DNA from: Bacteroidales bacterium
GTDB taxonomy: Bacteria; Bacteroidota; Bacteroidia; Bacteroidales; UBA4181
Length of the DNA stretch: 64,000 nt
Assembly (NCBI GenBank): GCA_031275285.1
Contig: JAISOY010000108.1
Coordinates: 1 to 64,000 of the forward strand
Direction: 5' to 3'
Each line of letters begins with the position of its first letter. Position 1 is the stretch's first letter. Below the pieces are notes generated by a model. It did no database searches. It saw nothing but the letters and a program-made list of their open reading frames with translations, and was not told the origin of the DNA. Below are positions 1-18,751 of this stretch, piece by piece. The position numbers and the translations under genes were made by a program.

Positions 1-3000
1 AATGGGCTATTGAAATCAACAACAATCGTTCCGGTACCATCGCTGAACTGATATCCTTCAGGTGCTTCAAACAAACCGGTTGCTTGCGTTAACGTTGGGT
101 TAACCGTCCAACAGGATACTGAATTCCTGATAGCAGGTGTAATTTCATTATGATTGACTTTCGGAATTACTTTTTTGTTTACCAAAAGTTCTTTAACATC
201 TTCTTCAGTGAACGTTGAGGGTATCTGTATATGATGACCTCCCTCCAGTTTGATATCGAGAATTTTTGATGCAGGTATTTGCGCATCCGTATCAGTAATC
301 TTTAGCCTGTAAATGTCATTAGAAATAGCATATAGATTCACATCAACCAATACCATATATTCTTTTCCGGAAGAAGGTATAAGTGCACTGTTTATAGAAT
401 TAGTTTCACTATTTTTTTTATCTATCAGAACATATTCACTTCCATCCTTCTCATATAAATACAATTCGCAGTTCTGTCTCATATTACTGGCAAATTCTAT
501 CTGATATCGTTCCGAAGAAAAATTCTTAAGCCTGAATGCTTTCACTTTACTCGTTCGGACAATATTTGGTTGTATTTTCAATTGTACTACCGGAACAGAT
601 GATTTTGTAAAATCACAAAAGTGTACATATGGAAGGTCTTTTTGACCATCTATTATTGGGGCGTTTTTAAATAATTCATCCAGAGAGCTTTCCTCTGTAT
701 ATTTGTCGACTTTCAATATATAACGGTCGTCCCTAATAGCGGAACCATGTACAATAAAGTAGTATTCTCCCGCATCCAATTTTTCTATCTTCCACGAACT
801 ACCATAACTCATCAACTCATAGGTGTTTTCCTTCTTGACGTAAATGTCGAAATTTCCTGTAACATCAGTCTGTAATGAAGATATAATAGCTATAATATTT
901 GTTTTGGCAGTAAGGTTGATTTTGTATGCCTGTGCAGATCTATAATATCCATTAGAAAAAAGACATGGAGAATTCCCCTTCTCAAATGATACCAGTACAG
1001 AACCGGGAAAACTAAGTTCAGTCGCATTGGCACATAAGTCATCAATAGTTATGGGCACGATTATTTTCAGAGACAATGAAAAATCACTGTTTTCAAAATT
1101 TCCGTGATAATCACTAACTGATACTACTACATAGTATTCGCCGGATTCATCGATAAGAGATAATAAATTCGGATTGTCGTTTCCTGTAACTTTCTGATAT
1201 TCGTCGCCATTCTCTTTATACAGCTCAATTAATGGCATATAGCCGGATGATTGTATTTGTGCCAACAGATGAGTTCCTACCTCCAGATTTACCTTATATG
1301 CTTGTGCGAAATTATAAGTGTAATAATAGTAATTATTACTGTATTGAATTTTTTTCTGAATCGGATCCGTTTTGCGGCCTGTAACAAAACAGGTATGGTC
1401 TTCATTAAAAAGCAACTCACCGGCATTGTCCAGCAAATCATCCAGAGTTGAATAGGTAAAAGGCTGGATACTAAGTGTGAAGTCGCCTGAAGTAAGGACA
1501 TTGTTGTATGTTGAGGAAATGATCAAATAATAATCACCGGATTCTTTTGCCTGATATTTCAATGACCTTGTTCCTGTAATCAATTGTACAAATTCGCCCC
1601 GAAGATTCTTTCTGGCTAAGGATACATTCGGATATAAAAAGTCTGATACTGCTTTAATACTGATATCTTCACCCTGAGTAAGATGTAATTTATAGGCTTT
1701 TGCAAAATAATAATTACCCATATCTGTAAAATCATTACCTTTTACACAAGGCTCGGATTCACCGCCCAACACATCCGTGAACGAAGCCGGCAAGGATATG
1801 GAAGACGCATTTTCGAGCAGGGTTTCTATCGGAATAGTGGTGAAAGCTCTTAGCTTTAGTGTATAATCGCCTTCATCCAAAGGGCTCTTTGCAGACACGA
1901 TGATATGATAGTTTCCGGATTGCGGTATCAGGTACGAACCATGAACTGCATCATTAAAATGTACCTGATGATAAGTTTGCGAATCATAGATGTACAAATA
2001 TTTTTCAACATCCGAAGTAAGATTATATTCCAATACTGTTCCGGCTTCCAGACTAACCTTATATGCATTGGAAAAATAACAATAACTGCTGTTTCCCTTC
2101 AACAATGAAGCGTGTTCATTATTTAAAGTTCCAGATCCGACAAAGGGGAGTGTTGTCGTACTTTGGGTTGCATCGATTAATCCCTTATAATTGATAGGGA
2201 TGGCTGTTTCTGTAATATTTAAGTCGTATTTGTCGTTTTGCAGACCGTTTGAAGAAACGAGGATATAATAATCATCTGTTTTTCCTGCGGGTACTACTAT
2301 TGGATAATAATAAGAATTGGATATAAGTTGATACTGGTCATCGATTTTCTGGTAGGCGGTAACTGTTGCATTGTGATCATACCCCTCCTTTATTCTTGCA
2401 GCTGTTCCGGCTTTCAGACAAAGACGATAAGCTGTGGCATAATTTACATAATGATCCCTGTCTACAATATTGCTTTGTTCATTCAGAACGCCCTGTATCT
2501 TACTTGGCAATGTATTTAACGGTTTTGCCTCAGATAAAACATCTTCAAGGGAATTAAGCTCGGTTATATGATCTATTTTTAATGAAAAATCGACGTTCCC
2601 ATTATTTGCTCCGGAAGATACAACTACATAATAATCGTCATTTTTACTTGCATAAAGAACATTACCTGAATAATCGTATGTCTGATTATATGTGCCGTTT
2701 TCTTTCAGGTAAACTTTTACATCAGCGCCTGTCAGATTGATCCTGATTCTCTCTTTGGCCGTCATGGTCACTTTAAATGCCTGTGCGTTGATCCAACTAC
2801 TGCCATCAACGACAAATCGTGATGGCGGCGTTCCCAGTATACCATTCAGGGAAAAAGGCATATCATTATAGTTCACTGGTATGGCTGATTCATACAGTTC
2901 ATTTATTGTTCCCGGAGCTTCTGTTTCCGTGATATTTAATGTAAACCCGATCGTTTCCAATGGTTGGTCCGTCAACATGAAGATAATGTATTCCCTATTT

Positions 3001-4145
3001 ACTGCCGAACTATAGCTTAATGAATTGGTATTCACATACGCGTTAGTTCGTAACAAATTATTACCACTTTTATAGTAAATACTGAAACTGGCATTCGTTT
3101 CTTCCGAATTGAAATCAACCCGGATCGCTTTTCCTGCTCCTATTTGTACTTTAAAAGCTTTTCCATGATAATAACTGCCATAAATATCCATAAAAGAAGA
3201 TTGTAATCCATTTCCCACAGGAGCTGTTAACGAGTAGGGAAGTGTTTCTATTTTTTCTGCCCCTTCGGCACATTCTTCCAATGAGGCAGGTGTTTTCATA
3301 CTTTCAGCCTCAAATGAATAAGTATAATTAAAACCGTACGGATAATGAGAACAATACACCATTGTGAAGACCAGATAATTGCCCGGTTGAGAAATCCTCT
3401 TTTTGCTAATTCCATTTGTATGGTGCCCTATCAATTTGAATTGTCCGGCATTTTCAGCAAAAATGTATACATAACTAGGGAATGAGTTTTTAATGGAGTA
3501 ACTAAGTAAGACAGACTCATCCGTATCAATGGAAAACTTATATGGTCGGACGAGATACATATCGTCTTGATATCCTATCCCATCCGTTCCACCAGCAACA
3601 ATAAATGAATTTCTTTCTTCCATTTCTCCTGATTCATTGAAAGGGAGCTCGGCAATGTTTGTGGCTTGTTCATATAACTCGGCAACCGTATAAAAATGAT
3701 GCGGAAGATCTAGCGTCAGTGTTGTTTTTTCAAAATCCTGACCATATTCACCCGTTATTACAATGTAATATTCACCGGTACCTTCAATTTGTGATGAAGT
3801 TTGAAATCTCAGTGCATTAGCAGATACATATACTCCATTATTTTTTTTGAAAAAATAAACATCAGGAACCATGTTGTCACAATAAACCCTCAATTTTTCG
3901 CCTTCAGCCAGGTTAACCTTAAATACCCTGGCATGATAATCATATCCTGAAATACCCAGTAAATTGTTATCCCCTGCAACCGGAGGCATACTCCCATCGT
4001 GGAAATCAATTTCAATGCTTGTAGGAATACCTGCGTAGTTAATGGTAACAGCATGATCAAATAATTCATTAACTGTAATTGGCGTTTGCGCCATAAGATT
4101 TACCTGGAAATAAATATAAAGGATGAATAGGGCGATTTTTTTCAT
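1..4145 (-). CDS. Large secreted repeat protein, partial (runs off left edge)
   Basis: The reading frame is open from an ATG at 4145 to the window edge without a stop, giving at least 1381 residues. The first ~20 residues are a signal peptide (MKKIALFILYIYF... ending in MAQ). The rest is about ten divergent tandem repeats of ~125 residues. Each begins with a motif like (T/S)(L/V)xELxExA, continues with a (K/Q)AYKVxLxAGxxL strand, and ends with a YYIVVSS-like strand. Repeat starts lie near 4082, 3695, 3295, 2915, 2560, 2190, 1835, 1455, 1060 and 690. After the last repeat (below about 270) the sequence changes character. The pattern resembles the bacterial pre-peptidase C-terminal (PPC) beta-sandwich, but that is inference. 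The function is probably cell-surface or extracellular; the C-terminus, and any sorting signal on it, is not in the window. Confidence 0.8.
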   Translation of the reverse strand, partial: MKKIALFILYIYFQVNLMAQTPITVNELFDHAVTINYAGIPTSIEIDFHDGSMPPVAGDNNLLGISGYDYHARVFKVNLAEGEKLRVYCDNMVPDVYFFKKNNGVYVSANALRFQTSSQIEGTGEYYIVITGEYGQDFEKTTLTLDLPHHFYTVAELYEQATNIAELPFNESGEMEERNSFIVAGGTDGIGYQDDMYLVRPYKFSIDTDESVLLSYSIKNSFPSYVYIFAENAGQFKLIGHHTNGISKKRISQPGNYLVFTMVYCSHYPYGFNYTYSFEAESMKTPASLEECAEGAEKIETLPYSLTAPVGNGLQSSFMDIYGSYYHGKAFKVQIGAGKAIRVDFNSEETNASFSIYYKSGNNLLRTNAYVNTNSLSYSSAVNREYIIFMLTDQPLETIGFTLNITETEAPGTINELYESAIPVNYNDMPFSLNGILGTPPSRFVVDGSSWINAQAFKVTMTAKERIRINLTGADVKVYLKENGTYNQTYDYSGNVLYASKNDDYYVVVSSGANNGNVDFSLKIDHITELNSLEDVLSEAKPLNTLPSKIQGVLNEQSNIVDRDHYVNYATAYRLCLKAGTAARIKEGYDHNATVTAYQKIDDQYQLISNSYYYPIVVPAGKTDDYYILVSSNGLQNDKYDLNITETAIPINYKGLIDATQSTTTLPFVGSGTLNNEHASLLKGNSSYCYFSNAYKVSLEAGTVLEYNLTSDVEKYLYIYDSQTYHQVHFNDAVHGSYLIPQSGNYHIIVSAKSPLDEGDYTLKLRAFTTIPIETLLENASSISLPASFTDVLGGESEPCVKGNDFTDMGNYYFAKAYKLHLTQGEDISIKAVSDFLYPNVSLARKNLRGEFVQLITGTRSLKYQAKESGDYYLIISSTYNNVLTSGDFTLSIQPFTYSTLDDLLDNAGELLFNEDHTCFVTGRKTDPIQKKIQYSNNYYYYTYNFAQAYKVNLEVGTHLLAQIQSSGYMPLIELYKENGDEYQKVTGNDNPNLLSLIDESGEYYVVVSVSDYHGNFENSDFSLSLKIIVPITIDDLCANATELSFPGSVLVSFEKGNSPCLFSNGYYRSAQAYKINLTAKTNIIAIISSLQTDVTGNFDIYVKKENTYELMSYGSSWKIEKLDAGEYYFIVHGSAIRDDRYILKVDKYTEESSLDELFKNAPIIDGQKDLPYVHFCDFTKSSVPVVQLKIQPNIVRTSKVKAFRLKNFSSERYQIEFASNMRQNCELYLYEKDGSEYVLIDKKNSETNSINSALIPSSGKEYMVLVDVNLYAISNDIYRLKITDTDAQIPASKILDIKLEGGHHIQIPSTFTEEDVKELLVNKKVIPKVNHNEITPAIRNSVSCWTVNPTLTQATGLFEAPEGYQFSDGTGTIVVDFNSP

Positions 4146-4451
4146 GCAAATGGGGAATAATTTAATGCTTATAAGAATAATAGCATGACAAAGTAAATAT
4201 TTATTTCACATATTCCAATTATTAGCTTCATTTTTACCTAAAAGTGGCAATGGAAATGTCAGCCAATTAAACGATTGGTATTATTTAAATTGAATAAATA
4301 AGAAGTGATCAAATTACACCATGATCATTTACAATTACAGATCGTGACCTTTATGGATATTTTTGTGAATAACATGATTGCTTATACGCAAAAAAGCTCA
4401 AAAAACATTTGTTCTTGAGCTTTTGTATGGCTTTTTACGATTGTTATTTTT
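4146..4451. other. Intergenic stretch, 306 bases
   Basis: AT-rich spacer between the OMP-like gene and the large repeat protein, both on the minus strand. Besides the hairpin at 4392-4424 I see no gene or other clear signal. It should contain the promoter of the repeat protein, but no full -33/-7 pair is convincing. Confidence 0.5.
4392..4424 (-). terminator. Rho-independent terminator after the OMP-like gene
   Basis: A 10-base inverted repeat (aaaagctcaa / ttgagctttt) with a 13-base loop. Read on the minus strand it is followed by a run of six T. It lies 28 bases past the stop of the minus-strand gene ending at 4452. Confidence 0.7.
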
Positions 4452-5219
4452 TTACATAAATTGTATTCCGATCGATAATCTTGGTAATTCTTTAGAGATA
4501 GCATCATTGTTAAAGATATCGGTAATCCGGTAATGCCCTATGATCGCAATTTTTTTCCACCCAACGCGAACAAACGGAGAGGCATTGAACGGATTAAACG
4601 CATACCCGTCACGATATTTCTTCTTATTGTTGACACTGGGTTTCACCTTATAAAATTTGCTGAAAGCAAAATCCCCCTGTATGCCTAAGTCAAAGTAAAG
4701 CCCACTGCTGTTTGAACGGTATTTGGCGGGGACTACGTAAAAACGGGTAAATATACTGGCAGCCAGATTACGGCTCCGGTATACCTGTTTACGAATATTA
4801 TCGGCGTCGGGAAGAAATCCGATGACTTCATTGGCAAATTCTTCATCACTTGCTGCATTTCTTAACCGGTAATTATAATTGGTAAACTGAAGGGAAGTTC
4901 CCAGTGAAAATATTTCATTGAAACTGAACCGGTGCATTCCCCCGAAGGTAAAATGATAACTGTTTCCTCCCCAGATGTCGAAATATTCGTCACCTCTGTC
5001 TAATGCCATAAAACTGATCCCTATGAAACCGGAGGTAGTGGAATATCTGTAATGGTTCTTTTTAGGCTTACCTTGTGAAGGAGGATCATTCTGCGGAATG
5101 ATTTCCTGTTCCTTATTTTGTTTGACGGATATTTCCATGGTTCCGATTCTCACAACAGACTGGGAGAATGCAATACCGGATACAAAAACAAAACAAAAAA
5201 TGATCAATAAGTGCTTCAT
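4452..5219 (-). CDS. Secreted protein, probable outer-membrane beta-barrel
   Basis: 255 residues from the ATG at 5219. This start is preferred over the upstream in-frame one at 5291 because it puts a clean signal peptide (MKHLLIIFCFVFVSG..AFSQ) at the N-terminus. After a polar linker rich in Q, K and P (residues ~25-60) come alternating aromatic/hydrophobic strands with Gly and Tyr typical of Bacteroidetes outer-membrane barrels. The protein ends in a hydrophobic strand closing with Phe-Met. No enzyme motif is visible. It is transcribed away from the dehydratase gene at 5407 and ends at a clear terminator. Membership of the neighbouring polyene-like cluster cannot be shown. Confidence 0.65.
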   Translation of the reverse strand: MKHLLIIFCFVFVSGIAFSQSVVRIGTMEISVKQNKEQEIIPQNDPPSQGKPKKNHYRYSTTSGFIGISFMALDRGDEYFDIWGGNSYHFTFGGMHRFSFNEIFSLGTSLQFTNYNYRLRNAASDEEFANEVIGFLPDADNIRKQVYRSRNLAASIFTRFYVVPAKYRSNSSGLYFDLGIQGDFAFSKFYKVKPSVNNKKKYRDGYAFNPFNASPFVRVGWKKIAIIGHYRITDIFNNDAISKELPRLSIGIQFM

Positions 5220-5406: not shown

Positions 5407-5781
5407 ATGAAACTCAAGGGTGACTTATACAATGTTGTTGATTTGCATAAAGATGCAGACAAAATAGAATATATACTGCGGTTAAATCCGTCCCATTTCA
5501 TCTATCAGGCTCATTTTCCGGGAAATCCGGTTACGCCGGGCGTTTGCATTTTACAGATAGTTAAGGAACTATCCATGGAGCATCTTCAGTGTGATCTTTT
5601 CCTGAAAAAAATATCAAAAGTAAGGTTTTTACATGTGATCCATCCGGTGGAAAATAACCAGGTAAACCTTACGCTGACTATTTCCCAGGATGACCATAGC
5701 TATAAAGCAACAGCTACCGTTTATAACCAGGAACGTACGTTTACCCAGTTATCCCTGATCCTGGAAAATACAAACGGGTAG
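5407..5781 (+). CDS. FabZ-like hotdog (3-hydroxyacyl-ACP dehydratase family) protein
   Basis: 124 residues from the ATG at 5407; an in-frame TTG at 5329 would add 26 residues that do not look like the family. The core motif is AHFPGNPVTPGV, which holds the FabZ catalytic His (residue 36). The FabZ catalytic Glu, normally in LILEAxAQ, is Gln50 here (ILQIVKEL). It converges with the ApeP-like dehydratase at 5786-6229, only 4 bases away tail to tail. In aryl polyene systems the dehydratase is known to be a heterodimer of two hotdog proteins (ApeI and ApeP). By inference, this gene and its neighbour could be such a pair. Acts in the cytoplasm on ACP-bound acyl chains. Confidence 0.75.
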   Translation: MKLKGDLYNVVDLHKDADKIEYILRLNPSHFIYQAHFPGNPVTPGVCILQIVKELSMEHLQCDLFLKKISKVRFLHVIHPVENNQVNLTLTISQDDHSYKATATVYNQERTFTQLSLILENTNG

Positions 5782-5785
5782 GGTA

Positions 5786-6229
5786 TTACGACGCCTGACC
5801 GGCTATATCGGTCATAAAGATCTTCATTTCACCGGAAGCGATTAATGTTTCACCGACCTTTACCTGTGCCTGGACAAGAAGTGTAGATAATACCTCCTTT
5901 ACGATAGTAACTGTTGTCAGTAATTCTTCGCCGACACGGGGATTTCTTTCAATGACCAGATTTTTTACCTCTCCGATGAATCCCAGCTTTACTTCATCTT
6001 TCTGTATATATTTATTGACATATCCCATTCTCGCGGCTCCGGTTTGGGCAATGTTTTCAACAATTCCCGGTTCGGTCAGGAATTCGCCTTCCACAAAAAT
6101 GTTATCCGATTTTACCAATAGCTTTGTTGAGATTGATGTTTCATCAAAATAAGCCAGTGAATCCACCATCACGAACGGACGTTGCTGAGGTAAGAGTTCG
6201 GTGATATCTATTTTTTCTATTTGTTCCAT
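5786..6229 (-). CDS. ApeP-like 3-hydroxyacyl-ACP dehydratase
   Basis: 147 residues, hotdog fold. The motifs PFVMVD (residues 18-23) and GIVENIAQTGAARMGY are those of the ApeP-like dehydratases found in aryl polyene and flexirubin clusters. Aligned to FabZ, the Glu is kept (E58 in VENIAQ) but the catalytic His position of GHFPG is Glu49 (GEF). The FabZ-like gene at 5407 shows the reverse pattern. It is the last gene of the minus-strand cluster, 38 bases after the ketoreductase. Expected role: dehydration of the 3-hydroxyacyl-ACP intermediate during polyene chain extension. Confidence 0.8.
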   Translation of the reverse strand: MEQIEKIDITELLPQQRPFVMVDSLAYFDETSISTKLLVKSDNIFVEGEFLTEPGIVENIAQTGAARMGYVNKYIQKDEVKLGFIGEVKNLVIERNPRVGEELLTTVTIVKEVLSTLLVQAQVKVGETLIASGEMKIFMTDIAGQAS

Positions 6230-6267: not shown

Positions 6268-6996
6268 TTAAGTATATAACCCACCATTGATGGATACTAC
6301 CTCTCCTGTAATATAGGCAGCTTGTTCGGAAGCAAGGAATCCGACCAGCGCAGCTACTTCTTCGGGTTGCCCGAAACGTCCGGCCGGGATCATCGATTTA
6401 AGCGTGCCTTCATCCAGGTCCTGAGTCATATCCGTAGCGATATATCCGGGAGCTACGGCATTTACAGTAACTTTTCTCGCACCGACTTCCTGTGCCAGGG
6501 CTTTAGTCGCACCTATTACAGCTGCTTTAGCTGCGGAATAATTGGTTTGTCCGGGTAATCCTTTTAATCCCGATAAAGAAACCATGTTGATCACTCTGCC
6601 AAAACGTTTGGTCAACATATTTTTCAATAACCTGCGGGTTACATAGAAGAACCCGTTCAGGCTGATGTTAATGACATCATTCCACTGGGCATCCTCCATA
6701 AAAATCATCACAGCATCCTTACGTATTCCGGCATTATTCACCAATACGGCAATATAATCGTCAGGATGTTCTTTAGACCAGGTACCTATAGCAGTATCAA
6801 CATCTTCCTGTGAAGCTACATCAAAAGGGAGTAATTCGGCTTTTACGCCCTTTTCTTCCACCATTTTTTTGGTTTCCAGGGCAGCTTCCTGATTGGATGC
6901 GTAATTAATGATGACAGGATACCCCATATCTGCCAGCTGCAAACATACGGCACGTCCTATTCCCCTGCTTCCACCTGTTACTAATGCGTATTTCAT
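6268..6996 (-). CDS. 3-oxoacyl-ACP reductase (SDR, FabG/ApeQ type)
   Basis: 242 residues, the normal length for FabG. It has the nucleotide-binding motif TGGSRGIG (residues 7-14), NNAG (87-90), and the catalytic set Ser140, Tyr153 and Lys157 (YSAAK). The C-terminus (YITGEVVSINGGLYT) is typical of classical short-chain reductases. It reduces 3-oxoacyl-ACP with NADPH in the cytoplasm. Its place between the ApeP-like dehydratase and the LolA-like gene, on the same strand, argues that it serves the specialised polyene/lipid pathway rather than primary fatty acid synthesis. Confidence 0.9.
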   Translation of the reverse strand: MKYALVTGGSRGIGRAVCLQLADMGYPVIINYASNQEAALETKKMVEEKGVKAELLPFDVASQEDVDTAIGTWSKEHPDDYIAVLVNNAGIRKDAVMIFMEDAQWNDVINISLNGFFYVTRRLLKNMLTKRFGRVINMVSLSGLKGLPGQTNYSAAKAAVIGATKALAQEVGARKVTVNAVAPGYIATDMTQDLDEGTLKSMIPAGRFGQPEEVAALVGFLASEQAAYITGEVVSINGGLYT

Positions 6997-7085
6997 TTAA
7001 AAAAATTTGGTTTTAAGTGTGAAGGTTTAAAAGTTTTTTTATACCACATCGAACATGTAACTTTTAAACTGTGAGTTATTATGAG

Positions 7086-7733
7086 TTACTTTTGTTTTTG
7101 CTTTTGTTTTTTCGATGGTTGAAAAACATCTTCATTGATGGGTTGATTGAACTTTTGGTTGATCAATTCATAAATATTATAACTGCCGTCCGGTTCTATC
7201 GTTTGAAAGGTGGATAATATAGAGCCATTCTTGTCAAAACTCATGATCACCTTGACAATATTGCTTTTATTGGCTTTTTTATCTATATCAGCCGTAACAA
7301 CATAATACTGGTCCGTTTCCTCACATACAATTTTCTCAGCGCCCATCTGCTTCACATCTCCCTGCAGGCAAGCGGAGAGGATAGTCTTCATTCCCCTCAT
7401 TTTGGCGTTGGATTTGGACGTAGTTTCATTCCACTTACCTCCGGCCACCATAACGAATTTATCTTCATCGATCAACATCAGGTCGCCTGCCGGATCTTCA
7501 TAATACATGGCCATCTGATCGGGTTTGTCATAATAGAACAAACCATTGGATTTTATTTTTTCTCCTATAATTGACATATGTTTTATTTGCCTGAAATCAC
7601 AGGTTATGGTTTTATATTGAGTGTTCGCCTGTTTGATCTTTTCAACGATCCGGCTATCTGCATCACTGATTTCCTGGGCTCTTCCATAGACGGATCCGAA
7701 AATAATAAATACCAACAAAATGAAGTTCTTCAT
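7086..7733 (-). CDS. LolA-like outer-membrane lipoprotein carrier
   Basis: 215 residues from the ATG at 7733. An in-frame start at 7760 exists but would place nine extra residues before the signal peptide MKNFILLVFIIFG. The mature part has LolA features: an early helix (SRIVEKIKQANTQYKTITCDFRQ), SNGLFYYDKPDQMAMYY, and a closing charged tail KKQKQKQK. LolA-type carriers move acylated molecules across the periplasm. In aryl polyene clusters a LolA paralogue sits with the MMPL exporter, and here too it lies just downstream of the exporter and an FAD enzyme. Probably dedicated to the cluster product. Confidence 0.8.
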   Translation of the reverse strand: MKNFILLVFIIFGSVYGRAQEISDADSRIVEKIKQANTQYKTITCDFRQIKHMSIIGEKIKSNGLFYYDKPDQMAMYYEDPAGDLMLIDEDKFVMVAGGKWNETTSKSNAKMRGMKTILSACLQGDVKQMGAEKIVCEETDQYYVVTADIDKKANKSNIVKVIMSFDKNGSILSTFQTIEPDGSYNIYELINQKFNQPINEDVFQPSKKQKQKQK

Positions 7734-7832
7734 ACGAAACAAATTATATAAAATTGACAATAATTACTTTTAAATATTATATTAATTTGACAGTTCAAAA
7801 ATAATACCTAAAACGGATTTTCCATTCTCTGT

Positions 7833-9311
7833 TTAATGATATAATTCTTTCACAAGATATTCCATACCTGTAATTTTTGCACAAGTGAAAAAAGAGGTCA
7901 TAGATACACCCAGGATCCCATGGAGGTTTAAATTTTGCCCCGTCAACAATAGATTCGGGACTTGTGTCTGAGGTGTCAGCATGGTAAAGGGCAAGCGATT
8001 GTAATCTTTTTGTATGCCATAGGCCGAACCTTCCCATGTTCCGGTATAATCCCGGTAGGTCAAAGGAGTGCTGGTATAATACTTTTCAATATTTCCTTTT
8101 AATTCCGGAATCCTTTCAGAAGCCAGCCGGATACATGCTTCTGCTTTTTGATTTTTAAAATCCTTGTAGTCTTCACCCCTTCTTTCAACGGATGTATTGG
8201 CCCATTTCTCGACTTCAGCCCAATACATGGGGGTAAGAATATCGATATTCCTGGTATATTTTGTTCCTGATTCGGGAACCTGGTAACTGATCAATGCCGA
8301 TTGCGTTCCTGCCTTAGGATGATAGTTGCAATCCCAGAGGTCCTGATCCTTATACAGGTATATATTCCTGTTCAGATAAGGGACTGATTTTTCCTTTAAT
8401 TGCAGGTGTACCGTGAACATACCACGCGTATTGGACAAGCCGGAAATACGTTTTCTGTATATTTTCCGGACATGCTGGCTTTCCGGGATCAGGGAAAGCG
8501 TGAGTGCCGGGTGCATATCGGATATCACATATTTGCTTTCCACTTGTTCCTGGTTATTGTATTCAATCCGTACGATTTCTCCGTTTTCTTCTATCAGACT
8601 TGTTACTTTAGCCTTTGTCAAAATAGTGCCGCCCATACGACGGATCCCGGCAGCAAGCTGATCGGCAATTAATGATCCCCCTCCTCCCAAACGCCAGGCG
8701 CTTTGGATAAAGGAACTATTGATTTGTGCAAAAACATATAAAGGTAATTTGTCCTTACATAATTCCATGGTCAGGGACGCACCTGAAAGGACATCCCGAA
8801 GTAATGGATCGTCAATAGTCTCCTGTAAATACGAGTGAGCCGAACGAGCGAATAAAGAAGTTGTGAAAAAATCTTCTCCGGTGGGATTAAAGCTGTTTTT
8901 TATATTATTCCCCACCTGTTGCAGGAAACCGGCATAATTACCCAATTGTTGCCGTTGATGAGGAAATTTTTCTGATAGTGAGTCAACAAAACGTTCGAAT
9001 CCGGATGCAAAGAGATAAGAATGATCGTTCAATACAACTTCTGCAAATCCGGTTTCATCCATTTTATGCCAGGGTAGATCCAACAAGTCGAAATAACGGA
9101 AAAGTGTATGAAGTCCCTGCCCTTCTTCCAACCCGCCGACATAATGAAATCCCGTATCAAAAACTGTATTCCCGCGTTTAAATGTTTGCAGGCACCCGCC
9201 TAATTGTGGGTTTTTTTCCAGAATACAGACGTTATATCCTTTTTTTGACAGGATATAACCGCATTCCAATCCACCTAATCCACTTCCGATAATAACAACG
9301 TCATACTTCAT
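7833..9311 (-). CDS. Phytoene-desaturase-like FAD oxidoreductase
   Basis: 492 residues. The N-terminus has a Rossmann FAD/NAD motif (VVIIGSGLGGLECGYILSKK, with the acidic EK at its end), followed by GGCLQTFKRG, typical of the CrtI/phytoene dehydrogenase and amine oxidase superfamily. The C-terminus has the second FAD-contacting segment (NLLLTGQNLNLHGILGVSMTS). Its start overlaps the 3' end of the MMPL gene by four bases, so the two are translationally coupled. The substrate is unknown; desaturation, saturation or isomerisation of the polyene/acyl chain is plausible. A second gene of the same superfamily is at 16464-17966. Confidence 0.8.
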   Translation of the reverse strand: MKYDVVIIGSGLGGLECGYILSKKGYNVCILEKNPQLGGCLQTFKRGNTVFDTGFHYVGGLEEGQGLHTLFRYFDLLDLPWHKMDETGFAEVVLNDHSYLFASGFERFVDSLSEKFPHQRQQLGNYAGFLQQVGNNIKNSFNPTGEDFFTTSLFARSAHSYLQETIDDPLLRDVLSGASLTMELCKDKLPLYVFAQINSSFIQSAWRLGGGGSLIADQLAAGIRRMGGTILTKAKVTSLIEENGEIVRIEYNNQEQVESKYVISDMHPALTLSLIPESQHVRKIYRKRISGLSNTRGMFTVHLQLKEKSVPYLNRNIYLYKDQDLWDCNYHPKAGTQSALISYQVPESGTKYTRNIDILTPMYWAEVEKWANTSVERRGEDYKDFKNQKAEACIRLASERIPELKGNIEKYYTSTPLTYRDYTGTWEGSAYGIQKDYNRLPFTMLTPQTQVPNLLLTGQNLNLHGILGVSMTSFFTCAKITGMEYLVKELYH

Positions 9312-12300
9312 TTTCCGTTATTATTATTTTCCTGTGAGTAACAAACAAAAACAGCATCCTCCTGGCTTTTACCGAAACCAAGATCTGTTAGTACCCGGAT
9401 GTATTTATCCTGCTGATCTTTTCTGAGCACTACTTTCTTTGCTTTTGAAAACAAATCTATCATGGTTTTTTCATGGGTAATGATCCTGGTTTTATTGATG
9501 ATGACCATATCATACGATAAGTTCAGTACTGAATAATCCGTAGAAAATGTCATCCTGTCGGTTTTTGAAAAACAATTATCCGCCAGTGCAATGGCTTCCC
9601 AATCAGTATCAAACCCGGTAATATTGATTTGCTTGTCCGTCAATGCTACCCAATATGAACAGAATCCATAACCGCACCCGTAATCCAGTACGTTTTTTTC
9701 TCCTTCCAGTAGATTGCTGATTAACGCATAATTATTTGTTTTTCTTAAGTCCTTACTCAGGGAGTGTTCCAGGTCATAACCCTTATATAGGTAATTATCT
9801 TTTAGTATACGTTGCGGTTGGGGATTTTTCAGTGAAAACAGATTTGCAATACCGATTGGTGCTTTCCCTTTTTCCGTTCGACCAGTAATCAACAGTGAAA
9901 ATAAAAACGGTTGTAACGAATACGCAATTAGGATCGTTGCTCCCATCCCGATCAGTGTAGCAACACCAATCGAAGATATGGCCGGATGAACGGCGAAAAG
10001 GAGGGAGGATACGACAACTATCAATATGACAGCAGAAAAGAAAATGGCTGTTTTATGATACATCAGCAGAGGTGATCTGGTCCGGTATCCGGCAAGTAAT
10101 CCGTCCATGATGAAAATACTGTAGTCTACTCCGATGCCGAATACAAAAGCAGAAATGACAATGTTGATCAGATTGAATTCCATACCAAAAATAGCCATGC
10201 TTCCCAGGACAATATACCAACTAAGTCCCATCGGCAGGAAGGCCAGGATGGAAAGTACGATACTCCTGAAGGACAGTAGAAGCACCAGTAATACGAACAG
10301 GGATGATATGGTCAGTGTGGTATTGAAATCATCGTGGATCATTTTTACCATATCACTTGTATAATACATAGGGTCGATCACTACAAGATCAGGATCATCT
10401 TTGACGATATTGTCACCGACTTCTGTTAAATACTTCCTGTCCATTTGTACGGGAACAAAAACAAGGTACTGATCGTCGGTATATTCAATGATATTGTCCA
10501 GGATTTCTTCCGGTATTACATCTGCTTCATACAAAGATACAGGTTCGTATTCCGTATCAAGCATATCAAAAAAAGGAGTAAATGTTGTCGGTGCGAATTT
10601 ATATTTTTTCCCGGCCTCAGTAATATTTTTCCTGATATCCTCTTTCCTTTCGTCGGTCCAGAACTCGTTCCATCGGTCAATCCGTTCTTGCTGCTCATTC
10701 ATTGGAACGAACAAAGTGAAAGCAGCTGAATATCCTTTTATCTGATTTTGCTTAAGCGCCTCATCCAATCTGGAACAAAGCTTTTCACCATAAATCAGGG
10801 CAGAATCAAAGTCACCGGATGCTGCCGCGAAATAAACGGTCGCCTGTCCTTCGTTTGCTTTTGAGGACAACAGTTTCTGGGAACGTACCACTCTTTTATC
10901 ATGATAACCAATGTTCTGTAAGTCAGAATCAAACTTTACCTTATCCGATACTGCAAAGCAAACGGCACTGACAATTAAAATCAAAGCGATCAGCCATTTT
11001 TGCTTTTCGAATGGGAAAGAATTGATTTTTTCAAGGATGGCAAATGCTTTTTCAGATTTTTTATTGTTCCGGGGATTAAAGAATTGCGGTAGAAACAGCA
11101 AACAGAATACCGTAGTTCCTACCAACCCCAGGGATGCGAACAATCCAAAATCCTGTAATAACTCGGATTTAGTCAATACCAGTCCCATGAAGGCACCAAT
11201 GGTAGTAAGGGAACCCAAAATGACAGGAATGGTCTGATCTTTCAATACTCTTTTAGGATCACTGACATATTTGTAATGTGTGATCACATGCAGGCAATAG
11301 CTGAAAGCTACCCCCATGACAATGGCCCCGATCCCCATGGCCATTAATGACATGCTGCCTTTAATAAAGTACATAACAGCCAAGGCAAAGAGAACTCCGT
11401 ATATAACCGGAGTGATCAGGTAAACCAGTGTAGACCTGTTTCTGAAGCAAATAATCAAAAGGACAAAGATCAAAGCCAGGGAAACGGAAATGGTCAATAA
11501 TAGATCCTTTTTTATTCGTTTGGAATTGTAAACACTCTGGACGGGTGCACCATGGTATAATATTTCAACACCCGGATATTGTTGCTGGAAAGAGGCAATT
11601 TCCTGCTCTATCATCTCCGAAAGCCGGGTACCTTTTTTAGAATCAAATGATTTAAAGTTGGGGGAAAGAAATGCAATAGCGACAGTTGTATCCGATGTAA
11701 AGATGTGACCATTATAGAATGTAAAATTACCACCTAATCCACTGCCGATTCCACCTAATCCGGACATAAAAATGTTACGCAGGGCTATCGGGTCCTGGGT
11801 AATTACATCCCTGAAAGCCATCCCTGCTGTAGAGATTAATGTAGCGTAATTCTCTTCCATCTGTTTTTCTACCTGTTCTTTTTGCAGGAGGGAATCCAGT
11901 TGACGGTATTGGGAAGCTTCAAGGAATACCGGGACATTTTCGTAAAGGAATGTTATCCCGTTTTGAAAAAGACTTTCGTCAATCTGGTACAGGACATTGT
12001 AAATCGCATCATTAATTGTGTCTTTATCCAAAAGCGCCTGGACAAATTCATCACAGATATCAACCAACTCATCAGTATCTATTGTATCAGACACCGGATT
12101 GAACAATATAAAGATTTTATCTTTTACCTTCAGGTTAGAAAAGACCAGTTTTTCGGTACCGCCTTTTTCCACAGACGGTAGTAATTTGGAAATATCTTCC
12201 TCAAAATTGATCTTTAAACCGAAGTAAGCAAAAAATAGGGTGGTCGATATCAGGATACCATAAAATAGGGCTTTATGTTTCTTGAAATATAGGTATATAA

Positions 12301-12319
12301 AAATGGTAAATCTTGACAC
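9308..12319 (-). CDS. MMPL/RND-type exporter fused to a class I methyltransferase
   Basis: 1003 residues from a GTG at 12319. Residues ~1-800 have the RND/MMPL layout: a first transmembrane helix at ~18-36, a large periplasmic loop, a helix bundle at ~270-430, a second single helix near 445, a second loop, and a final bundle at ~690-810. The gated motif GIGVDYSIFIMDG in the second bundle is characteristic. The C-terminal ~190 residues are soluble and carry SAM-methyltransferase motif I (VLDYGCGYG, ~877-885) and an acidic motif II (ITGFDTD). Lipid or aryl polyene export to the outer membrane plus methylation of the head group is the likely pairing. The fusion is unusual; I see no stop or frameshift between the two parts. 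Confidence 0.85.
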   Translation of the reverse strand: MSRFTIFIYLYFKKHKALFYGILISTTLFFAYFGLKINFEEDISKLLPSVEKGGTEKLVFSNLKVKDKIFILFNPVSDTIDTDELVDICDEFVQALLDKDTINDAIYNVLYQIDESLFQNGITFLYENVPVFLEASQYRQLDSLLQKEQVEKQMEENYATLISTAGMAFRDVITQDPIALRNIFMSGLGGIGSGLGGNFTFYNGHIFTSDTTVAIAFLSPNFKSFDSKKGTRLSEMIEQEIASFQQQYPGVEILYHGAPVQSVYNSKRIKKDLLLTISVSLALIFVLLIICFRNRSTLVYLITPVIYGVLFALAVMYFIKGSMSLMAMGIGAIVMGVAFSYCLHVITHYKYVSDPKRVLKDQTIPVILGSLTTIGAFMGLVLTKSELLQDFGLFASLGLVGTTVFCLLFLPQFFNPRNNKKSEKAFAILEKINSFPFEKQKWLIALILIVSAVCFAVSDKVKFDSDLQNIGYHDKRVVRSQKLLSSKANEGQATVYFAAASGDFDSALIYGEKLCSRLDEALKQNQIKGYSAAFTLFVPMNEQQERIDRWNEFWTDERKEDIRKNITEAGKKYKFAPTTFTPFFDMLDTEYEPVSLYEADVIPEEILDNIIEYTDDQYLVFVPVQMDRKYLTEVGDNIVKDDPDLVVIDPMYYTSDMVKMIHDDFNTTLTISSLFVLLVLLLSFRSIVLSILAFLPMGLSWYIVLGSMAIFGMEFNLINIVISAFVFGIGVDYSIFIMDGLLAGYRTRSPLLMYHKTAIFFSAVILIVVVSSLLFAVHPAISSIGVATLIGMGATILIAYSLQPFLFSLLITGRTEKGKAPIGIANLFSLKNPQPQRILKDNYLYKGYDLEHSLSKDLRKTNNYALISNLLEGEKNVLDYGCGYGFCSYWVALTDKQINITGFDTDWEAIALADNCFSKTDRMTFSTDYSVLNLSYDMVIINKTRIITHEKTMIDLFSKAKKVVLRKDQQDKYIRVLTDLGFGKSQEDAVFVCYSQENNNNGK

Positions 12320-12358
12320 AGGTTTTGATGTTATGAATTAAAATGATAATGGTGGTTT

Positions 12359-12802
12359 TTATTCAGGCTGGACATTCCATTGTTTTTTCCATTTCCTGTA
12401 AAAGTCGGGTGCAGAGACTTCAAATATCCCGTCCCGTGTCATAAAAAGTTGAATGGTGCTGGCTTTCAAAACAACAGACATGTCAGATTCTTTATAAATG
12501 GTATAGTCAAATATCATCTTTGCCGAGTTACATGGTACATAAGTAGTTTCAACAACCAGTACCTCTTCATAAGAAATCATATTCATATACCTGATATGCA
12601 GGTCAACAATAGGAGTAACATAGCCATTATTGTAAACATCCATATATCCTATGCCGAACTTTTTGCCGAAAGCTTCTCTTCCGTTTTCCAGATACTTGAC
12701 ATAGTTGCCATGCCAAACCATATTTATAGAATCAACATCATAAAAATGAATATTTATTTTTGTTGTTTCTGATAATTTTTTTTGAATATTTTCTTCTTTC
12801 AT
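12359..12802 (-). CDS. Acyl-CoA/acyl-ACP thioesterase (4HBT, YbgC/FadM type)
   Basis: 147 residues from the ATG at 12802; a TTG two codons earlier is less likely. The hotdog motif YDVDSINMVWHGNYVKYLENGREAF (residues ~21-45) is the 4-hydroxybenzoyl-CoA thioesterase signature, with Asp and His at the expected places. It lies 40 bases upstream of the MMPL gene on the same strand and after a strong hairpin. Cluster thioesterases of this type are found in aryl polyene loci, where they release or proofread ACP-bound chains. Acts in the cytoplasm. Confidence 0.8.
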   Translation of the reverse strand: MKEENIQKKLSETTKINIHFYDVDSINMVWHGNYVKYLENGREAFGKKFGIGYMDVYNNGYVTPIVDLHIRYMNMISYEEVLVVETTYVPCNSAKMIFDYTIYKESDMSVVLKASTIQLFMTRDGIFEVSAPDFYRKWKKQWNVQPE

Positions 12803-12878
12803 TGACAATCAAAAGGCATTTGATCAATTCTTCCCCGATATAAATAATCGGATTTATCTTTTCATTCTTAATAAAGCT

Positions 12879-12912
12879 AAAGCTGATTGAACAATTTCGT
12901 TCAATCAGCTTT
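12879..12912 (-). terminator. Strong hairpin between ACP and thioesterase genes
   Basis: A perfect 14-base-pair stem (aaagctgattgaac / gttcaatcagcttt) with a six-base loop, 23 bases past the ACP stop codon. The T-tract after it on the minus strand is interrupted (tttagctttatt). It may terminate the ketosynthase-ACP transcript, attenuate it, or protect a processed 3' end. Confidence 0.55.
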
Positions 12913-12934
12913 GCTTTATACAATTTCAATTTTA

Positions 12935-13174
12935 CTAAAGTCTTTCCTCAATAAAATTATATAATATCTCAAATGTTTTTATAGATGTTATGTCTTGACC
13001 TTTGATTTCCACGCCAAATGCGCTTTCTATCAAAGCAATCATATCCACCAGGCTTAAACTGTCGAGATCTAATGTTTCTTTAATATCGGCATCAGGAGTG
13101 ATATCCGATACTTCTATCTCAAATTCCTCAGCCAGTGCATTATTAACTTTTTCAATGAGTTCTTGTCTTTCCAT
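12935..13174 (-). CDS. Acyl carrier protein
   Basis: 79 residues, acidic and helical, with the phosphopantetheine site DLDSLSLVD (Ser39). The length and the pattern of helices II and III (LVDMIALIESAFGVEI) fit a stand-alone type II ACP. It lies 28 bases after the ketosynthase gene on the same strand, so the two form a co-transcribed pair. It carries the growing chain in the cytoplasm. The position beside one ketosynthase rather than beside a complete fab operon suggests it is dedicated to this cluster. Confidence 0.9.
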   Translation of the reverse strand: MERQELIEKVNNALAEEFEIEVSDITPDADIKETLDLDSLSLVDMIALIESAFGVEIKGQDITSIKTFEILYNFIEERL

Positions 13175-13202
13175 TCTTGTCTGTTTTATTTATTTTTAAA
13201 GA

Positions 13203-14423
13203 TTAAATATTTTTTACAATGAGGGTAGAATTGGTTCCTCCGAAACCAAAAGAATTAGATAGGAACATATCAAAATTTTTGTCTACCCTTGATCCGGGAA
13301 TATTTAATTTTGCCGAATCTTCATCCGGATTTTCAAAATTAAGATTAGGTGCAATATAGTTATTTTTCATCATTAACATCGAATAAATCACCTCACTTGC
13401 ACCCGCCATCCACATTTCATGTCCAGTCATTGATTTGGTCGATGTTACTTCCGGTTTATAATCCCCGAATACATGATCGATCGCTTTTGCTTCATTTCTG
13501 TCTCCAACAGGAGTAGAAGTAGCATGGGCATTGACATATCCTATATCCCTGATATCAACTCCGGCTTCTTTTATGGCCATCATTAACGAACGGGCGGGAC
13601 CATCTACATTTGGAACCGAGATATGATCTCCGTTGGAAGAAAATCCATATCCACATATTTCCCCGATAATAGGAGCACCACGTTTAACGGCCGATTCATA
13701 GCTTTCAATGATAACGGTTGCTGCTCCACCTCCCGGAACCAATCCATCACGATCCCTGTCAAAAGGACGGGAAGCCCTGGTGGGATCGTTTTCCCTTATT
13801 GAAAAAGCACTGATGCCATCAAAACTACCGACGGAAAAGGGGTTTACCTCCTGAGCACCACCACAGACAATACAGTCTTGCAGTCCCCATTGGATCAGTA
13901 AACTTCCCAGACCAATGGAATGTGATCCGCTGGCGCATGCTCCGGAAATTGTCAGATTGATCCCTTTCAGTTTAAAAATACAAGCCAGGTTCATGGTCAC
14001 AGTGGAATTCATGGATTTAAAGATGGCCCCTGAACCGATCAACGTGGTATTTTTCTTTTCACGCATAATATCGACACTTCTTACTACGGCGTCGGCACTG
14101 CTGTCGTTTCCATACAACAAACCTACTTCATGTGTATCCAGAAAATCCTGGTCGATTTTCGCATTTTTTAATGCTTCTACAGTTGCTACATAGGCATAAG
14201 CACCTTCTTCCGGTATATAAACCCGTTGATTCCGGCTAAGTGCACCTTTCAGATCAGGCATATCTACTTTTGCCGTTAATCCTGACCGGAACCCCATTTC
14301 TTTCCTCTCCGGATCCAGAATAATCCCTGATACTCCATTGTAAAGGGATTTATTTACTTCTTCGAGATTTTTTCCTAAACATGAATAGATACCCATTCCT
14401 GTAATTACAACTCTCCTTTTCAT
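13203..14423 (-). CDS. Beta-ketoacyl-ACP synthase (KAS II / ApeO-ApeR type)
   Basis: 406 residues. The thiolase-fold condensing enzyme triad is intact: Cys163 (SGACASG), His300 (NAHATSTP) and His335 (KSMTGHEMWMAGASE). The C-terminus has the FGGTNS glycine motif. It extends acyl-ACP with malonyl-ACP. Only one ketosynthase is visible in the cluster and no chain length factor partner. It begins downstream of a terminator (14484-14509), and a possible -7 box (TATTTTTG on the minus strand, 14468-14475) lies before it, so it may start its own transcript with the ACP gene. Confidence 0.9.
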   Translation of the reverse strand: MKRRVVITGMGIYSCLGKNLEEVNKSLYNGVSGIILDPERKEMGFRSGLTAKVDMPDLKGALSRNQRVYIPEEGAYAYVATVEALKNAKIDQDFLDTHEVGLLYGNDSSADAVVRSVDIMREKKNTTLIGSGAIFKSMNSTVTMNLACIFKLKGINLTISGACASGSHSIGLGSLLIQWGLQDCIVCGGAQEVNPFSVGSFDGISAFSIRENDPTRASRPFDRDRDGLVPGGGAATVIIESYESAVKRGAPIIGEICGYGFSSNGDHISVPNVDGPARSLMMAIKEAGVDIRDIGYVNAHATSTPVGDRNEAKAIDHVFGDYKPEVTSTKSMTGHEMWMAGASEVIYSMLMMKNNYIAPNLNFENPDEDSAKLNIPGSRVDKNFDMFLSNSFGFGGTNSTLIVKNI

Positions 14424-14483
14424 GTGATGATCATATTTTTTTTAAGTATGACAGATTTCCCATCGTGCAAAAATAAAAAAACA

Positions 14484-14509
14484 GATGAAATATTCGAAAA
14501 TATTTCATC
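14484..14509 (-). terminator. Rho-independent terminator after the acyltransferase gene
   Basis: A perfect 11-base stem (gatgaaatatt / aatatttcatc) with loop cgaa. On the minus strand it is followed within a few bases by TTTTTTTATTTTT. It is nested in an outer repeat (acagatttc at 14451-14459 and gaaatctgt at 14523-14531). It separates the acyltransferase from the ketosynthase transcript. Confidence 0.75.
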
Positions 14510-14541
14510 ATTAAAACTTTCAGAAATCTGTTCATATGTGA

Positions 14542-15987
14542 TTAACTGCTCTTCCTTGCCCGCAACCAAGGCTGTATAAACCGCTCATAAAGATTACGAA
14601 CTATAGGTTTTGATCTTATCCCCAACGAAGTATCCAAAGATTCATAAAGATTGGTTCGTAATGAGATCAAATCATCCAGCTTCTTATTTTTGGATAACTT
14701 ATGAAATCGAAATTCGCTTAACCAGGCTTTCCATGTTTTGGCGTAATGCCATACAAATACGCCTAAGAACGGAAGACAAAACACATATATAGAGGCAATC
14801 AGAAATGAATTTGTCAACATCCATGTTATGGCAAAAATGGAAAGATATAATACCGGCATGGTAAATAATAAGCTGATCACGATTTTGATGGCGCTGTGCA
14901 ACATCGGATCTTTTACTTTAGATGTAACCATTCCGGGAGCATATAAAACCAGGATATTAGGGATCAATGAAAAAATAAAAAGAGGGAATAACAAAGCAAA
15001 CAAAACTCCTTTGGATAGCATTTTCCACGGATTGTATTTCCTATCGAAATTCCAGTCGTTAAGCCTTAATTGTTTTATTTTTTCTCCCAGTGTGAGAGTG
15101 TCCCGGTATATCTGCTGTACCAGATGATCGTCTTTTTCTTTCAAATGTTCCAAATCAGCAAACAACTGTTTGTCAGCCAATAATTTTTCCGGAAGTTTGG
15201 TGGGATTTAAACCCTTTGATTTTGCGTATTTAACCCCATATGTATTTCTCAGGTAATCTATGGCCTTATAATTATCCAGATCAGTAATATTCAGCATTAA
15301 ATCGGATACCTGTTGCCTGACCAGTGCATTTACCTGCCGTTGTGCGGTTCTTGGCTTGGTTTTGTATAACTCATAGAAAGGTGCTATAGAAATCGGTGTC
15401 CCGTATTTAATCACCATATCTTCCTGTATATCGAAATAATTTGAATAATGATTACAGGACGGAAGGACAAATAATTCTTTCTTAAAATCGCTTTTTCTTG
15501 CAGCTTCAAAAAGGATATGCAGGTAACCTGATGAGAATTTACCCAGCCAGCGTTTATCCTGATGTCCGGACTCGGGGAAAATAATGATGGTTCCATCATT
15601 TAATAATTCCTCTTCGGATACTTCAAAAGTATCAGTGTTATGTACCAGTGACTCCTCTCCATCAACAGACATACGGTATGCCGGTAGCAATCCCAGCCAA
15701 CGAAGCAAGCGATTGGCCAGTGGTTTGTTGAAAACATCGGCCCGCGTGATTACCTTATGTTTTCTTTCTCTTCTCCCTTTAACGGTAAGCAAAAGTCCCA
15801 ATGGATCACATAAGCTGTTTTGATGATTGGATACAATCATTAACGGACACTTTTCAGGTATGTTTTCTGTATTGACTGCATATACTTTCCGGTAATATAC
15901 ATGATCATGAAAGAAACCCACATACTTCTTGAATATCCGATACCCTAAACCGGGTTTTTCGTTTTGGATGTTTCTCTTTTTTGTCAT
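14542..15987 (-). CDS. PlsC-family acyltransferase with C-terminal membrane segments
   Basis: 481 residues. The acyltransferase motif is NHQNSLCD (His55, Asp61): five residues between His and Asp, as in the NHQNxLxD subgroup, rather than the classical four. A second motif FPESGHQDKRW follows at about residue 138. The C-terminal third has hydrophobic segments at ~335-355 and ~375-420, so it is an inner-membrane protein. It would transfer an acyl chain to a glycerol- or lysolipid-type acceptor. In polyene clusters such enzymes attach the chain to a lipid anchor. It is terminated separately from the ketosynthase gene, so co-regulation is not certain. Confidence 0.8.
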   Translation of the reverse strand: MTKKRNIQNEKPGLGYRIFKKYVGFFHDHVYYRKVYAVNTENIPEKCPLMIVSNHQNSLCDPLGLLLTVKGRRERKHKVITRADVFNKPLANRLLRWLGLLPAYRMSVDGEESLVHNTDTFEVSEEELLNDGTIIIFPESGHQDKRWLGKFSSGYLHILFEAARKSDFKKELFVLPSCNHYSNYFDIQEDMVIKYGTPISIAPFYELYKTKPRTAQRQVNALVRQQVSDLMLNITDLDNYKAIDYLRNTYGVKYAKSKGLNPTKLPEKLLADKQLFADLEHLKEKDDHLVQQIYRDTLTLGEKIKQLRLNDWNFDRKYNPWKMLSKGVLFALLFPLFIFSLIPNILVLYAPGMVTSKVKDPMLHSAIKIVISLLFTMPVLYLSIFAITWMLTNSFLIASIYVFCLPFLGVFVWHYAKTWKAWLSEFRFHKLSKNKKLDDLISLRTNLYESLDTSLGIRSKPIVRNLYERFIQPWLRARKSS

Positions 15988-16463
15988 TATTATTTATACT
16001 AAAGAGAGCGTAATATTTGATGTCCTGATTAATGGTGTGTATGCCTAATTTCGGACAATTTTAGATGAACTGGTTATCGAAAGAACTTGATCAATAATAA
16101 ACGTAAATATTATCGAATTGTTCATTTTATGAGTTCAAAAGGATTACGATAAAACCGTCTACATCACTGCTTTTGAAAGATCCGGATTTTCAGGTACGGA
16201 TGCTGTCTTTTTCAAATTGATTATTTCTCGAATCCCAAAACCATTAGTTTTACTAATAAAAAATTATTCCAAGCGACAAATATAATCTATTTTAGATTAC
16301 AATAAGTGTCCATTATTACTGTAAAAATGTTTGAAAAGTCGTTTTCCTGTTTTCTGAATTGTTTTAGTCTGTATTACACAAAATATATTCTTTTGTTTCC
16401 TAGTGAATTGCGAAGATATTATAGATTTTGTTAAACGCCAAATAATTATTTATTCGCAGGTGA
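15988..16463. other. Intergenic stretch, 476 bases
   Basis: AT-rich with no coding signal on either strand. It presumably holds the promoter of the acyltransferase gene. A possible minus-strand -7 box (TATATTTG, near 16277) has no good -33 partner. Nothing else is recognisable. Confidence 0.4.
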
Positions 16464-17966: not shown

Positions 17967-18124
17967 TGTTTAAGTTCTATATGGTAGTTTCTGGTAATGA
18001 TTAAATGATTATTAAAACATTCTTTACTACAAGGGACAAAGTTAACAAAAATACCAGTTTAAGAAATTTCATTTTCTTAACGTAATAAAATGGCTCATTA
18101 TTGTGTGAATTAATGCCTGGTAAA

Positions 18125-18751
18125 TTATCCTATTAAAAAACTTAATACCGCTACAAGTCCGAGTAAGACGATCAGTATTCCGGCTGTCCTGTTCAGGTAT
18201 AGCAGGTAACGCGGGCGGAATTTATTCCGTAACATAGCGATACAGGTAGTTAGTGTGAACCACCACATAGATGCTCCGATAAAAACCCCGGCGAGAATGA
18301 ATGATCCTGAAAAATAACTGATATCCGAATCAACTCCGAAAAGAGCAAAAAAAGCCATGTATGTCAGGATAAAAGCAGGATTAACTATTGCAATGAGAAA
18401 TACCGAAACAAAGTCGCTTCTTAATGTTTCTTTTTTTTCCTTGTTCTGCCGGATTTGCATTACAGGATTCTTAAAAAAAGTAATCACTCCTAATACGATA
18501 ACACAGATTCCAAGTATGATTTTTAACAGTTCGATATTTTTTTCAATGAATGGCAACACAATTCCCAGGAAGAATGCAGCAATAGTCGCAGATAAAGTAT
18601 TGGCAGAAGCGGCTCCGAGTCCGGAAATAAATCCGGATTTCCGGCTTTTGGATAATGTTCGTTGGATGCAGAGTACTGCAATAGCTCCTGGTGGTATTGC
18701 TACCATTAATCCAGTTATTATCCCTATCCCTAAATTCAACAAAAATTCCAT
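18125..18751 (-). CDS. LysE/RhtB-family inner-membrane exporter
   Basis: 208 residues with six hydrophobic segments spread over the full length. The N-terminus (GIGIITGLMVAIPPGAIAVLCIQRTLSKSRKSGFISGLGAASANT) is the LysE family signature, with the conserved PPG. Family members export amino acids or related small molecules by proton antiport. The gene has its own spacing on both sides (158 bases to the FAD enzyme). Upstream are a possible -7 box (TATCTTTG on the minus strand, 18780-18787) and a small palindrome cctcaatttgagg (18796-18808). The substrate cannot be told from the sequence. Confidence 0.85.
   Translation of the reverse strand: MEFLLNLGIGIITGLMVAIPPGAIAVLCIQRTLSKSRKSGFISGLGAASANTLSATIAAFFLGIVLPFIEKNIELLKIILGICVIVLGVITFFKNPVMQIRQNKEKKETLRSDFVSVFLIAIVNPAFILTYMAFFALFGVDSDISYFSGSFILAGVFIGASMWWFTLTTCIAMLRNKFRPRYLLYLNRTAGILIVLLGLVAVLSFLIG

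Follow-up and report, generated by a model that had tools for sequence, protein, structure and literature searches.

DHQ and DHE, two neighbouring genes of a Bacteroidales bacterium, very probably encode the two halves of one heterodimeric 3-hydroxyacyl-ACP dehydratase of the flexirubin/aryl-polyene type, whose single composite active site would take its His from DHQ and its Glu from DHE. The genes lie in a stretch of 64,000 nucleotides, hereafter the window (Bacteroidales bacterium, UBA4181; assembly GCA_031275285.1, contig JAISOY010000108.1, positions 1-64,000, forward strand; Table 1). An earlier note on this DNA had proposed that the pair forms a split active site, and this proposal is supported by the mirrored conservation of the two residues, the near-perfect co-occurrence of the two genes, and the structural models, each of which matches best one chain of 6qsr, the crystal structure of the ApeI:ApeP heterocomplex. 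E. coli ApeI/ApeP and 6qsr itself also divide the residues in this way. By analogy with ApeI:ApeP, DHQ and DHE most probably function only together.

Table 1. Features of the window discussed in the text.
Feature	Position	Strand	Details
DHQ, ApeI-like hotdog subunit	5407..5781	+	124 aa, ATG at 5407, catalytic His36 (predicted role)
DHE, ApeP-like hotdog subunit	5786..6229	-	147 aa, catalytic Glu58 (predicted role), His loop shortened
Ketoreductase, NCBIfam flexirubin FlxB equivalog	6268..6996	-	410.8 bits, cut-off 340
LolA-like lipoprotein carrier	7086..7760	-	
FAD-dependent oxidoreductase, carotenoid-desaturase-like	7833..9311	-	
MMPL/RND-type exporter with C-terminal methyltransferase-like part, one frame	9308..12319	-	
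4HBT thioesterase-like protein	12359..12808	-	
Acyl carrier protein	12935..13174	-	
Beta-ketoacyl synthase	13203..14423	-	
Lysophospholipid-acyltransferase-like protein	14542..15987	-	

The FabZ catalytic residues are divided between the two proteins as the earlier note had described. DHQ retains the FabZ His as His36 (codon 5512-5514, cat) within an AHFPG motif and carries Gln50 (codon 5554-5556, cag), 14 residues further on, at the position of the FabZ Glu, while DHE retains the Glu as Glu58 (codon 6058-6056, gaa, minus strand) within a VENIAQ motif and is without the His; each subunit thus has one of the two residues, and no chain has both. The further claim that Glu49 of DHE (codon 6085-6083, gaa, minus strand) stands where the His should be does not hold, as no His-to-Glu substitution has taken place. 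Alignment revealed that the His-bearing loop of DHE is shorter than that of FabZ and of the genome's own LpxC-FabZ, the spacing between the two positions being 14 residues in FabZ versus 9 in DHE (residue 49 to 58), and the residue-49 column is variable across the DHE family (G in 110, N in 15, D in 9, E in 8, H in 2, and A, R, Q and T in one each of 148 sequences). Some His occurs within the loop in 8/148 sequences, at shifting positions. Both reading frames are intact, and each carries the residues that are invariant in its own family.

The conservation of these positions was analyzed in homologues drawn from a sample of the class (295 genomes), 60 relatives, and 80 named Bacteroidota loci. 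Before the counts were made, rows that scored below 60 bits (two weak ones), lacked the two columns, or lay within other rows were removed, and overlaps were merged, giving 100 distinct DHQ and 148 distinct DHE sequences; the 60-bit floor removed one LpxC-FabZ (L002, that of the genome itself) from the DHE set. The His of DHQ was present in all 100 distinct homologues, both among the 51 rows from the named loci and among the 49 from the remainder, and the H, F, P and G columns of the His loop were likewise invariant (100/100). The position of the FabZ Glu in DHQ was occupied by Q in 84 sequences, E in 7, H in 3, K in 2, and L, D, S and R in one each. Conversely, the Glu of DHE was present in 68/68 sequences from searches without a Glu-demanding pattern and in 148/148 with the named loci included, although the latter loci are not counted toward invariance because the pattern used to search them demands Glu; the E, A and Q columns of the Glu helix were conserved in 148/148. 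As a control, the LpxC-FabZ of relatives was found to keep His and Glu in one chain in 20/20 cases. This mirrored conservation suggests that, in each subunit, precisely the half required by a single composite site is maintained, and since the split residue pattern recurs through the class, it exceeds chance.

At 84/100, the Gln of DHQ does not appear to drift freely, suggesting from the sequences that it may have a role of its own. In a quick tree of the 100 DHQ sequences, built with the scored column included and with roughly half of its forks left open, 13 changes were counted among Q, acidic (E/D) and other residues, versus a mean of 15.6 after shuffling. Seven of the 100 DHQ homologues, including L068, L072 and L044, carry both His and Glu, and those of L068 and L072 adjoin DHE; to judge by their residues, such homologues may also act alone or as homodimers. 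Comparison of the DHQ and DHE profiles with hhalign gave no match (probability 3.2%), so that a recent duplication as the origin of the two genes is unsupported; a deep common hotdog origin is possible.

In the class sample (n=295; E <= 1e-10 for both DHE and DHQ), both genes were found in 52 genomes, DHE only in 4, DHQ only in 5, and neither in 234 (Fisher p 5e-47, a value that overstates independence because the sampled genomes are related); both genes were therefore present in 52 of the 61 genomes holding either. With the exception of G054 (98%) and G050 (91%), the nine genomes with a single gene, namely G054, G196, G216 and G249 for DHE and G050, G151, G209, G223 and G264 for DHQ, are all less than 80% complete, and weak DHE-like matches are present in G050 and G151. 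Among the 60 relatives, 20 held both genes, none held DHE only, two held DHQ only (57 and 58% complete), and 38 held neither. In six genomes of the same genus, DHQ and DHE are on different contigs, which counts against reading them as a pair.

Both chains proved to be hotdog proteins, as had been proposed, on the strength of a Pfam FabA domain in DHQ (28 bits versus a cut-off of 23), weak FabZ matches in DHE, and confident structural models. Single-chain models were generated with AlphaFold2 from alignments of 53 rows for DHQ (A4) and 59 of 81 sequences for DHE (A5), with mean pLDDT values of 95.3 and 93.4, respectively, and both match hotdog dehydratases of the PDB. In the DHQ model, His36 ends a short helix (31-36) and Gln50 lies inside a long helix (45-60), while in the DHE model Glu58 is near the start of a long helix (53-75). 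When VIA-align 2 was run on the Foldseek candidates, the two models separately matched the two chains of 6qsr, 'The Dehydratase Heterocomplex ApeI:P from Xenorhabdus doucetiae', each at rank 1: DHQ matched 6qsr_A (Z 15.8, 1.9 A, 111 residues, 21% identity), with a lead of less than 1 Z over the runners-up (3esi_A at 15.5 and one FabZ at 14.9), and DHE matched 6qsr_B (Z 21.4, 1.4 A, 138 residues, 14% identity; next 19.7). The Foldseek order itself placed FabZ chains first for both models, with 6qsr_A at rank 29 for DHQ and 6qsr_B at rank 8 for DHE. At the sequence level, the best PDB match of a profile of DHQ and 12 homologues (A1) was 6qsr_A (E 2.9e-9), while several FabZ stood ahead of 6qsr_B (E 4.2e-7) for a profile of DHE and 19 homologues (A2).

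Neither protein belongs to FabZ, as each chain is without one of the two residues and scores below the NCBIfam equivalog cut-off of 113 bits (DHQ 25.3 bits; DHE 40.2 bits, a weak match that is accompanied by matches to FabZ of the PDB). DHQ also fell below the cut-off of the Pfam ApeI-like family PF22818 (17.7 versus 28.5 bits) and DHE gave no match to the Pfam ApeP-like family PF22817 at E 0.1, so the two proteins are not filed in those two Pfam families. At E 0.01, matches to the ApeI-like and ApeP-like families were obtained for 5/13 and 1/20 members of the two alignments.

The closest known system is ApeI:ApeP (6qsr from X. doucetiae, with homologues in E. coli and Acinetobacter), which like DHQ and DHE consists of two different hotdog subunits and which, according to PMC8041823, is heterodimeric and has only one active site. 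The 6qsr chains, as aligned, indicate the same division of residues, with ApeI keeping the His and ApeP the Glu; in E. coli CFT073, ApeI has the His and an Asp at the Glu position, and ApeP has the Glu without the His. DHQ and DHE differ from this system in their low identity to it (~21% and 14%, and below the Pfam cut-offs), in the Gln, rather than Asp, at the Glu position of DHQ, and in the convergent orientation of the window genes. FabZ has the same hotdog fold, the same two positions, and a site that is composite across the homodimer, but both residues are in one chain, whereas DHQ and DHE have one each.

Within the Bacteroidota, FlxF and FlxS are predicted dehydratases of the flexirubin cluster of Chitinophaga pinensis, according to the accessible part of PMC3992019, where neither a split site nor a heterodimer is mentioned for them. 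DHQ and DHE are likened to these proteins by gene order, the order in relatives fitting the lettering flxB, flxC, flxF, flxS, and an FlxB equivalog (NF053542; score in Table 1) adjoins the pair in the window. Searches of the open-licence PMC literature found nothing linking flexirubin with both heterodimer and dehydratase.

Based on these comparisons, the following mechanism can be proposed. In PMC2692856, the active site of HpFabZ is given as His58 and Glu72' (the prime denoting the other subunit), composite across the dimer, and with such a cross-subunit arrangement a DHQ:DHE dimer would have one complete site and one dead one. The live site would consist of DHQ His36 and DHE Glu58', which homology predicts to lie in one pocket, while the second site, with Gln50 and no His, would be dead. 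The pair would dehydrate 3-hydroxyacyl-ACP supplied by the adjoining FlxB-type ketoreductase, and so give rise to the conjugated double bonds in a lipid of the aryl-polyene/flexirubin type. We infer from the same comparisons that DHQ and DHE bind one another, as well as their reaction and its product. It is conceivable, if unlikely, that the dead site is kept dead by selection across the Bacteroidia and that its Gln pocket has taken on another task, for instance accommodating the polyene as it grows or a further ACP arm; the dimer would then be asymmetric, catalysing at one site and binding at the other, and in this genus its halves would also have come to sit in separate transcription units.

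The tail-to-tail arrangement of the two genes was borne out, their stop codons being separated by 4 bases (5782-5785), as was the convergent order of DHQ relative to the main cluster, whose main genes, from 6268 to 18751, are on the minus strand. The earlier note had called this orientation unusual, which it is, but it is a local rearrangement rather than part of the mechanism, as other adjacent pairs are co-directional. Both genes were found in 52/80 named loci and in 12/40 stretches from the class sample, on the same strand in all 52 and all 12 cases. In the stretches from near relatives, both were found in 3/20, two with the genes on the same strand and one (L245) with the genes on opposite strands, ~12 kb apart. 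The genes are adjacent in six other loci (L115, L116, L170, L180, L068 and L072), where DHE precedes DHQ on one strand at a distance of between -70 and 19 bases (the value of -70 assumes the start of the longest ORF), and the closest relatives of the window's DHE among the named loci are those of L115 (60% identity) and L116 (59%). As these six pairs are co-directional, the convergent pair in the window reflects either a secondary, local inversion of DHQ or a mistake in the assembly. DHQ would then need a promoter of its own; otherwise, the orientation is silent on mechanism. We found no inverted repeats around DHQ that explain the inversion, nor any promoter or terminator patterns that do so (promoter-like, 5 versus 3.7 expected by shuffling; terminator-like, 2 versus 0.7).

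The usual gene order in related clusters is KR, KS, ACP, DHE, TE, KS, KS, LolA, DHQ, and DHQ and DHE are far apart in many of them. Two tandem DHE-like genes, both with the Glu, occur in L047, L053, L064, L067, L069, L074 and L187. By eye, the DHQ frame runs on into a C-terminal family 2 glycosyltransferase-like part in L109 (634-1860), L143 (16472-17776) and L178 (16857-18002), and in E. coli CFT073 apeI adjoins a family 2 glycosyltransferase gene. The homologue of the window's MMPL exporter (9308-12319) in L116 is shorter (836 aa), and positions 1-4452 of the window hold a minus-strand open frame of ~1400 codons that runs off the contig start. The only aromatic-ammonia-lyase match of the genome, a tyrosine ammonia-lyase of the FlxA type (NF053541, 844.8 bits, cut-off 700), lies outside the window among neighbours unrelated to the pathway (G000 contig C67:16860-18278, L257; L278:9774-11333, minus strand), and the genome's six ketosynthase-family matches are on six contigs, so that the flexirubin-type pathway looks scattered in this genome.

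The division of residues between the two proteins could be read in other ways. DHQ could be the only catalytic subunit, with DHE acting as a scaffold or substrate channel and Gln50 or another residue doing the second job, as in HadAB of Mycobacterium tuberculosis, likewise a hotdog dehydratase composed of two different subunits with only one active site, in which, according to PMC4491049, the His-Asp dyad is wholly on HadB and HadA has none. This precedent and the presence of Gln at that position in 84/100 DHQ speak for catalysis by DHQ, but in our pair His36 and Glu58 are in different proteins, the invariance of the DHE Glu (68/68) would be needless in a pure scaffold, and the residues found instead of Gln in the other DHQ sequences (E, H, K, L, D, S or R) have no common chemistry. 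We therefore consider this reading improbable.

Less probable still is that DHQ and DHE do not act jointly, each forming homodimers with other roles (substrate or ACP binding, isomerisation, or thioester chemistry) or partnering other hotdog proteins such as FabZ. The opposite strands of the genes here, their distance in many clusters, their separate contigs in same-genus genomes, and the absence of a mutual match between their profiles are all in line with separate roles; set against these are the co-occurrence in 52/61 genomes, the complementary loss of residues, the adjacent co-directional pairs elsewhere, and the independent recovery of both chains of the ApeI:ApeP heterocomplex. That the window copy is merely a broken dehydratase pair left over from a scattered cluster would fit the spread of pathway genes over several contigs and the inversion of DHQ relative to its close relatives, but it is hardly credible given the intact frames with family-invariant residues and the confidently predicted folds.

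The principle of a split dehydratase is already known, and what is added here is its breadth in the Bacteroidia and the preference for Gln in DHQ. The pair can be recognised by sequence from HFP...PG....Q in one protein and G..E(N/H).AQ without the His loop in the other, and neither gene alone should be called a working FabZ. On the heterodimer reading, the two annotated dehydratases of flexirubin-type clusters would gain a joint role as one enzyme, with an active site built from both.
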